The notes under the pieces are model-generated. The model was not told the origin of the DNA and searched no databases. It saw nothing but the letters and a program-made list of their open reading frames with translations. From Deltaproteobacteria bacterium (lineage in GTDB: Bacteria > Desulfobacterota > Desulfobaccia > Desulfobaccales > 0-14-0-80-60-11), in assembly GCA_003599195.1 (NCBI GenBank), contig QZIZ01000019.1:23524-87523 (forward strand): a DNA stretch of 64,000 bases, in the 5' to 3' direction. The translations under genes were made by a program, and so were the position numbers. Of this stretch, positions 1,033-7,023 are shown piece by piece (position 1 is the first letter of the stretch; the number at the start of each line of letters is the position of its first letter).

Positions 1033-1236
1033 GAGCCGCTCCTCTCAAAGGCCTATGAGGACACCAGTAAAACGAACCATTACTGCGGCAGGAAGTGGTT
1101 AGATGATAACACAAGATCCTGTAAAAATCAATTATTCGGGGTCTGCCGTACCTCCCCCGGAGCCGTCAAGCCCCGCATGGTGGTGCGAACCATGGGCCAA
1201 ACCCGCCCGGCCCGGGCGGGATTATTGCTTAGGCGC

Positions 1237-2076
1237 TCACGCTCCGCCCGGAGCGCACTCCACCACTTTAGGCTCCTCCACTTGGACCGCCTGGGTGGCG
1301 ATCATCGCCTGCGCCCGCGCATCCACCAGTTTTTCCCCGTAAAACATGGCCCCTTCGGTGTAGGGAGAGGTCTTGAAGCCGGTGTAGGCCCTCAGGCCCG
1401 CCCGGTGGAAGCCCGCTTTCAGCAGCAGCGCCAGGAAGTCCCTTCCCGGCAGGGCGCCGCCGATTCACTGGTACCAGTTTTCAATCTTCCCCGCCTTATC
1501 CGGGGGGAGTTCCGCCACCAGCACCATGTCCGCCAACATGAGGCGGCCCCCGGGCTTCAGCACCCGGTGGGCCTCTAACAAAGCCTTTTCCTTGTCCAGG
1601 GTAAGGTTAAAGACGCCGTTGGAGATGACTGCGTCGAACTCGTTATCCGGGAAAGGCAGGGATTCGGCCTCCGCCAACTGAAAAGTGACATTTGTTAGGC
1701 CCAGGACAGAGAGGTTGGCTTTAGCCTTGTCTATCATGGCCTGGGTCACGTCAACGCCCGCCACCCGGCCCTCCGGCCCCGCCATCTTCGCCGCCAGAAG
1801 CGAGTCCAGCCCCGCGCCGCAGCCGATGTCCAGGACTGCGTCCCCGGGGTGGATAGGCCCCAGGCTGAAGGGGTTGCCCACCCCGCAGAAGGAGTCGATA
1901 AGGGCGGCCGGAAAATCCCGGAGCAGGTCCAGGGGGTAACCCTGCTGCTTCAGCCCTTCCAGGCCGGTGGGGTACCTGAAGCATGAAGCCGCGCCCGCGG
2001 CCGCCACCTGGGAGTATTTGCTCTTGATGCTCTCCCGGATCAGGGTGATATCTTTTTCGGTCAGATTAGATTCCAT
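1237..2076 (-). CDS. ArsM/AS3MT-like SAM-dependent methyltransferase, candidate selenoprotein (in-frame TGA at 1465..1467 read as Sec, residue 204)
   Basis: The N-terminal 203 aa (track ORF 1465..2076) carry VLDIGCGAGLDS and VISNGVFNLTLDKEKALLEAHRVLKPGGRLMLADMV. After the TGA the same frame continues IGGALPGRDFLALLLKAGFHRAGLRAYTGFKTSPYTEGAMFYGEKLVDARAQAMIATQAVQVEEPKVVECAPGGA* to a stop at 1237..1239. That matches the usual ArsM-type C-terminus (C-x-x-GAL...LLxxAGF...TxFKTSxxTEGAxF). Confidence 0.75.
1430..1450 (-). promoter_or_regulatory. Candidate bacterial SECIS hairpin downstream of the TGA codon
   Basis: Minus strand: GCCGGGAA-GGGAC-TTCCTGGC, 8-bp stem (one G-U), 5-nt loop beginning GG. 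It starts 14 nt after the TGA, which places the apical-loop G ~23 nt downstream. Confidence 0.65.
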
Positions 2077-2138: not shown

Positions 2139-2705
2139 TCACAGTTCCTTCCCGATGGAGAAGGCCTTGCCCAGATATTGGCCGATCCCGTGGTAGGTGC
2201 GGATTTCCGGGCCGAAGACAATGGGCTTCACCTTCTCGATGTCCGCCATGCCCTTCTCCCCCAGCACGCTGTCATCGGCCTTGACGTCCAGGACTTCGCC
2301 GATGAACTGGGTGTGCAGGCCGATTTCGATGGTGTGGATTACTTTGCATTCCAGGACCAGGGGAAATTCCTGCACATAGGGCGCGTCCACCAGGCCGCTT
2401 TTCACCGGCGTCAGCCCGGCCGCGGTGAACTTGTTCCCGGCCTTGCCGGAGGCGATGCCGCAATAATCGGCTTCCTTGACGTAAGCTTCCGGGGGGATGC
2501 TGACGGTGAAGGCCTTTTTCAGCATCAGGTTGCCGTAAGTGTAGGTGGCTTTCCGCAGCGAGACCCCGACGCAGGGCGGCTGGGAGCAGACGATCCCGGC
2601 CCAGGCCGCGGTCATGATATTGGGTGTGCCCGCCGCGTCATAAGTCCCCACCAGCCACACCGGGGTGGGGAAGGCCAGGGTCTTGGGACCCAGGGATTTT
2701 TTCAT
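2139..2705 (-). CDS. Flavin reductase family protein (FMN-binding split barrel)
   Basis: MKKSLGPKTLAFPTPVWLVGTYDAAGTPNIMTAAWAGIVCSQPPCVGVSLRKATYTYGNL..., typical flavin reductase/flavoredoxin pattern. Confidence 0.85.
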   Translation of the reverse strand: MKKSLGPKTLAFPTPVWLVGTYDAAGTPNIMTAAWAGIVCSQPPCVGVSLRKATYTYGNLMLKKAFTVSIPPEAYVKEADYCGIASGKAGNKFTAAGLTPVKSGLVDAPYVQEFPLVLECKVIHTIEIGLHTQFIGEVLDVKADDSVLGEKGMADIEKVKPIVFGPEIRTYHGIGQYLGKAFSIGKEL

Positions 2706-6006: not shown

Positions 6007-7023
6007 TCAAAGGTCAAGGCGGAAATGGTCGAACCCTTCTCCGGCGATCTCTTTCTCCCCTTCCGGGGTGGCCAGCCAAACCCCGGTCCCGGGGATAATT
6101 TCTCCTAAAGAGAGAGGCCGCGGCAATCCGGCCCGGTCAAAGGCCTGGAAAAGGGCCCCGGTCTTCTCAGGTGGCGAGGTAAAGAGCAACTGATAATCTT
6201 CCCCTCCTTTCAGGGCTAGATCCAGGGGGTCCAGACCCAGCAAAGGGGCCGCAGCCCGCACCCGGGGCGAGACCGGCGCGCCCGCGGCCGGAATTTTCGC
6301 CCCCACGCCGCTGGCCCGGCAGACATGGCCCAGGTCCGTGGCCACGCCGTCGGAAAGATCAATGAGTGCGCTAGCCAATTTTTCCCCGGCCAGAATCCGG
6401 CCCGCCCGGAGTTGGGGCCGAGGGGCCAGGTGGCCTTGGGCCAGGGCCTCTTTAAGCTGCGGCTCCAGGGTCACACCCCGCTTTAGCATCTCCAGGCCTG
6501 CGGCCGCTTCTCCCAAAGGGCCGGTGACGTAGACGCGGTCTCCAACCTGCGCCCCCCGGCGTCGGAGCATTTCCATCTTGGGGACCCGGCCCAAAAGGGA
6601 AATAGTTACCATGACGCCTTTGGGGGAAGCCACGGTATCGCCGCCGATCACGGCCACCCCGTATTCCCCGGCGGTCCGGGCCAACCCTTCTCCCAGGGCC
6701 AGGGCCCCCGCAGGGTCTTGGCCCTTGGGCCACCCCAGGGAGAGCAGGGCATAAAGGGGCTCTCCCCCCATGGCCGCGATATCGCTCAGGTTTACCGCCA
6801 GGGCCTTGTAACCCAACTGGGATAAAGAGAAATAAGCCAGATCGAAATGCACCCCCTCCAACAGGGTGTCCACGGTCCACAGGAGGTAGTCGGGTCCGGC
6901 CACGGCCAGGGCCGCGCAGTCGTCCCCGATCCCTACGGCCACTGCCGCCGGAGGCGGCCCGAAGATGCGGCTTAAGGCATTGATGAGCGCCGGTTCCCCG
7001 GTTAAAGGCTTTTCGGGGGGCAT
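6007..7023 (-). CDS. thiL: Thiamine-monophosphate kinase
   Basis: AIR-synthase-like fold: GIGDDCAALAV...LLWTVDTLLEGVHFDLAYFSLSQLGYKALAVNLSDIAAMGGEPLYALLSLGWP...IDLSDGVATDLGHVCRASGVGAKI. Confidence 0.92.
   Translation of the reverse strand: MPPEKPLTGEPALINALSRIFGPPPAAVAVGIGDDCAALAVAGPDYLLWTVDTLLEGVHFDLAYFSLSQLGYKALAVNLSDIAAMGGEPLYALLSLGWPKGQDPAGALALGEGLARTAGEYGVAVIGGDTVASPKGVMVTISLLGRVPKMEMLRRRGAQVGDRVYVTGPLGEAAAGLEMLKRGVTLEPQLKEALAQGHLAPRPQLRAGRILAGEKLASALIDLSDGVATDLGHVCRASGVGAKIPAAGAPVSPRVRAAAPLLGLDPLDLALKGGEDYQLLFTSPPEKTGALFQAFDRAGLPRPLSLGEIIPGTGVWLATPEGEKEIAGEGFDHFRLDL

Follow-up and report, generated by a model that had tools for sequence, protein, structure and literature searches.

The 64,000-nt stretch of DNA analysed here (the window) carries on its (-) strand a gene that quite probably encodes an ArsM-superfamily, class I SAM-dependent methyltransferase with two selenocysteines (Sec), both recoded through SECIS elements, which would methylate a soft metalloid or metal with the aid of a C-terminal arm bearing Sec280. 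Computation demonstrated the two sites of recoding, the family and fold of the protein, and its residue pattern. The gene is a member of an already catalogued family, and hence not new, because the read-through protein matches the profile NF047649 above its cut-off (525.9 bits against 460, over residues 1-280 of 283) and this family, named “methyltransferase/UXPK-star double selenoprotein” and credited with two Sec, is listed in a passage of a 2026 review (PMC13188914), which cites Haft & Tolstoy 2025. An earlier note on this DNA had proposed a candidate selenoprotein of ArsM/AS3MT type; its selenocysteine reading is supported by the present analysis, its arsenic reading is weakened, and the family it described was already on record. 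The features concerned are as follows.

2139..2705 (-): flavin reductase-like gene (PF01613, 122.7 bits), immediately upstream of the methyltransferase gene
1222..2076 (-): full frame of the methyltransferase gene, 284 aa when translated with TGA=U, with Sec at U204 and U280
1465..1467 (-): UGA codon of Sec204, in the column of CmArsM C224 and human AS3MT C206
1419..1463 (-): SECIS-like hairpin 1, which lies within coding sequence; its apical stem-loop is GGAAG-GGA-CTTCC
1237..1239 (-): UGA codon of Sec280, belonging to the UXPK motif (here U-A-P-K) at the C-terminus, where NF047647 is above cut-off at residues 251-280
1222-1224 (-): TAA stop codon of the methyltransferase gene, the protein ending ...CAPGGA-U-APKQ
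1202..1220 (-): hairpin 2, candidate SECIS for Sec280, CCCGCCCG-GGC-CGGGCGGG, 3' of the stop codon

The ORF 1465..2076(-) reads KIENWYQ and then TGA, after which the frame stays open for 75 further sense codons, to the TGA at 1237-1239, as the earlier note had stated and as translation bears out. That second TGA, previously regarded as the stop, is recoded too: the frame runs on as U-A-P-K-Q before reaching TAA, which makes the protein longer than supposed and a double selenoprotein. The first UGA lies inside the U-x-x-G motif of the methyltransferase (U204-IGG) and the second within the C-terminal UXPK motif (U280-APK). Judged by alignment, the sequence past the first TGA is homologous, with chance excluded, because NF047649, the ArsM/AS3MT structures and the TGA-bearing homologs all align across it; the residues downstream, proposed before as the normal C-terminus of the family, are indeed its usual ending. 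When this profile was searched directly against the genome DNA, it scored 519.1 bits over 1-283 with 2 TGA inside, and the tail domain NF047647 (UXPK-star) exceeded its own cut-off at residues 251-280.

The column of the first TGA, whose content in relatives had been singled out as a check, holds Cys in the ArsM/AS3MT structures and TGA in 86 of 87 distinct clade members from several phyla, the remaining one having GGA; neither TAA nor TAG was found at codon 204 among these 86 and the GGA homolog, and the coding sequence 3' of this codon is kept in the homologs. UXPK-star relatives also carry TGA at the place of Sec280 in the homolog alignment. Both in-frame UGAs are supported by evolutionary comparison of the sequences. 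Two relatives (L044 and L045) have a further TGA as the codon directly following the UXPK motif, probably a true stop. The single GGA homolog (L089:4001-5392) belongs to the Sec clade but encodes Gly where the others have UGA, through either loss of Sec or error. Ordinary annotation truncates the methyltransferase gene, as the earlier note foresaw with its 203-aa protein, and an example of such truncation is found in RefSeq: the plasmid homolog of Ilyobacter polytropus (L164:2483-3250) has TGA at codon 204, its CDS ends there, and it is likely mis-annotated.

The window protein resembles NF047649 (MTase_UXPK_star) in its full-length match above the curated cut-off and in two Sec at the same places, with no essential difference. 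The selenoprotein families NF041537 (ArsM/AhpD) and NF041536 (ArsM/DUF2284) share the Sec-containing methyltransferase domain, and the window protein reaches 350 and 312 bits with them; it falls under both cut-offs, and whereas those families bear an additional C-terminal AhpD or DUF2284 domain, it has only the short UXPK tail. Copies above the NF047649 cut-off occur in 6 of 396 genomes sampled across the phylum, and the UXPK-star domain is above cut-off in 13 of 22 genomes of the host's family. No record of a substrate for the NF047649 family was found, and a literature search for an Alkaliphilus selenoprotein ArsM returned no paper.

The best 13 PDB fold matches of the protein are all ArsM/AS3MT structures, and Sec204 aligns to the Cys of GEC-LGGAL in the solved structures 5evj, 5eg5 and 4kw7. 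With ArsM (NF008823/PRK11873; CmArsM 4FSD; human AS3MT 8XT7) the window protein has in common the fold, the SAM-binding domain and the C224/C206 column; it differs in V66, G154, a new invariant C64, Sec204 and the C-terminal Sec tail. The three As(III)-ligand cysteines of CmArsM are not all present, their columns reading C72 to V66, C174 to G154 and C224 to U204. Among 94 distinct homologs, which were collected by peptide patterns from the window protein and form a sample biased towards the C64/V66 form, 85 are C64/V66/G154/U204, one is C/I/G/U, one is C/V/G/G and 7 are canonical, with L or M at 64 followed by C66/C154/C204. The C72 column is thus Val/Ile and the C174 column Gly in all 86 Sec members of the clade, and Cys64, two residues ahead of the first ArsM ligand column, is invariant in it. 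Human AS3MT has no activity towards either inorganic or methyl As(III) (iAs(III), MMA(III)) when mutated to C156S or C206S, and Cys61 is the third As ligand (PMC3877260); the position of C156 is Gly in the window protein.

The earlier claim that the TGA falls on a conserved As(III)-site Cys is accordingly half sustained: the column is that of C224/C206, but the two partner ligands are absent throughout the clade. The arsenite methyltransferase profile NF008823 gives the window protein 198.1 bits against a cut-off of 263, while a separate canonical ArsM elsewhere in the same genome (G000 C87, L151:179-937 (-)), with all three As-ligand cysteines, passes it with 317.5 bits. Because the clade is without two of the three As-binding cysteines and has the invariant C64, the name “arsenite methyltransferase” is not established for the window protein, and on these sequence grounds arsenic would be a homology-based lead that has been weakened. 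Giving these enzymes that name extends a function across the loss of an essential ligand. The 64-kb window holds no ars operon genes beside the methyltransferase gene, and since none adjoin it, the argument for a metalloid substrate is one from homology.

One explanation, to which we give slightly less than an even chance, is that the enzyme methylates some other soft substrate, such as Se, Te, Sb, Bi or Hg species or an organic thiol or selenol, with its specificity set by C64, G154 and U204. This agrees with the sample, in which C64/V66/G154 goes with Sec204 while ArsM combines L/M64 with C66/C154/C204, and with the tree, in which a 100/99 branch splits canonical ArsM from the Sec clade; in addition, the host already owns a canonical ArsM. 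Nevertheless, the altered ligands could still bind As via Cys64 and Sec204 together with an external thiol or the Sec280 tail, and a few members (L074) have a regulator of the ArsR family nearby.

Rather unlikely is an arsenite methyltransferase of the ordinary kind, with Sec merely in the place of one As-binding Cys, a reading also implied by the names of neighbouring NCBIfam entries. Fold and sequence are nearest to ArsM/AS3MT, Sec204 stands at the C224/C206 column, and two other Sec-containing ArsMs (L159 and L160) keep C154 with only the Cys of codon 204 changed; moreover, NF008823 arsenite methyltransferase is itself listed among selenoproteins, in the block preceding those “predicted with high confidence” (PMC13188914). 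Against it stand the loss of the C72 and C174 ligands in all 86 Sec members, the inactivity of AS3MT C156S (PMC3877260), and the NF008823 scores, 198 bits falling short of 263 where another gene of the genome reaches 317.5.

The tree was rooted at its midpoint, so that the direction of change in it is an inferred one. Three ArsM-like proteins of other genomes (L158-L160) keep C154 and have TGA at 204, with C66 also kept in L159 and L160. Because these canonical-site Sec forms nest inside the canonical ArsM group, apart from the C/V/G/U proteins, comparison of the sequences suggests that Sec was gained at codon 204 at least twice, once inside true ArsM. Two distant homologs have the form A64/G154/U204. 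A tentative proposal, with the balance of probability leaning against it, is that the C64/V66/G154/U204 clade constitutes a selenoenzyme group of its own, widely distributed and with a remodelled soft-metal site, which would not be an arsenite methyltransferase; the Sec of its active site and, for UXPK-star members, a second one in the mobile C-terminus would jointly act on some substrate that is not As(III), and Sec would have arisen independently, at the same codon, in true ArsM (L158-L160).

Each UGA is followed by a hairpin whose 3-nt loop contains G and lies 23 nt (U1) or 24 nt (U2) after the UGA. Past the first UGA, where a SECIS-like structure had been predicted, hairpin 1 folds with -28.6 kcal/mol (z -3.7; none of 200 shuffles did as well), and its apical stem is kept in 14 distinct homologs, with the loop-closing pair exchanged from G-C to A-T; this region is also coding, so its conservation does not stem from RNA structure alone. 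For hairpin 2 the evidence comes from relatives: its loop begins 18-24 nt past the UGA in 14 of 14, compensatory C-G/T-A exchanges occur at two pairs (7 of 14 relatives each), and the arms pair with their own partner at 6.6 of 7 positions, against 5.3 when arms are swapped between relatives. Folded for the window by itself, the 55-nt region does not beat its shuffles (z -0.2). Hairpin 2 may double as a transcription terminator.

The genome encodes selB (363 bits, above cut-off) and selD (above cut-off; G000 C48, L012:1501-2490 (-)). An in-frame TGA stands at the active-site Cys position of selD (AAGU motif); that its product is predicted from the sequence to be itself a selenoprotein points strongly to Sec use by the organism. 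Neither selA nor tRNA-Sec was found in the genome assembly, which is 81% complete, while both were above cut-off in 7 of 7 relatives tested. Of the machinery that the earlier note had named as a check, selB and a Sec-containing selD are accordingly present, and selA and tRNA-Sec were seen in the relatives; the missing selA was rejected as a refutation of Sec use, given those seven relatives and the incomplete assembly. Upstream of selB on its contig, where selA was sought, just one unassigned ORF was seen. The tRNA-Sec candidates of the genome are ordinary tRNA-Ser, -Leu, -Lys and -Gly according to ARAGORN, and a SelD-like gene of the window (6007..7023(-)) proved to be thiL, not selD. That the TGAs are real stops, leaving a 203-aa truncated enzyme or pseudogene, or sequencing errors is extremely improbable and was rejected: the truncation of such genes by ordinary annotation, as in the Ilyobacter plasmid homolog, and the absence of selA and tRNA-Sec from this assembly would suit it, but TGA is shared at codon 204 by 86 distinct homologs, with no TAA/TAG and with conserved coding sequence downstream, and the second TGA and the hairpins are conserved as well.

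Under the preferred reading, that of a double selenoprotein methyltransferase of the ArsM superfamily, SelB and tRNA-Sec would recode each UGA at a bacterial SECIS hairpin, the second of them lying past the stop codon. The catalytic pocket would contain Sec204, and a flexible tail at the C-terminus, CxPGGA-U-x-P-K, would carry Sec280; the AlphaFold model gives most of the core pLDDT values >90, against 45-64 for the tail 251-283, which bears Sec280. Together with the invariant Cys64, which replaces the ArsM ligands, Sec204 may bind an ion of a soft metalloid or metal, be it As(III) or some other thiophilic species, and this ion would then be methylated from SAM. The tail with Sec280, being mobile, could serve as a reducing or delivery arm, and might be kept reduced by the flavoprotein encoded upstream.

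This flavin reductase-like protein is a candidate redox partner on the basis of conserved adjacency: a homolog, 70-87% identical, is found directly upstream in 9 of the 11 distinct UXPK-star-type loci with enough flank, window included. The gene is possibly co-transcribed with the methyltransferase gene. A survey of neighbourhoods in the wider clade found no conserved gene cluster except this flavin reductase of the UXPK-star group, the neighbours being otherwise scattered (ArsR-type, P-type ATPase, rhodanese). At the edge of the window, positions 1-1032 encode in translation a protein built of many similar, beta-propeller-like repeats (SSPAxGxDGTxYVG), which runs off the window start.
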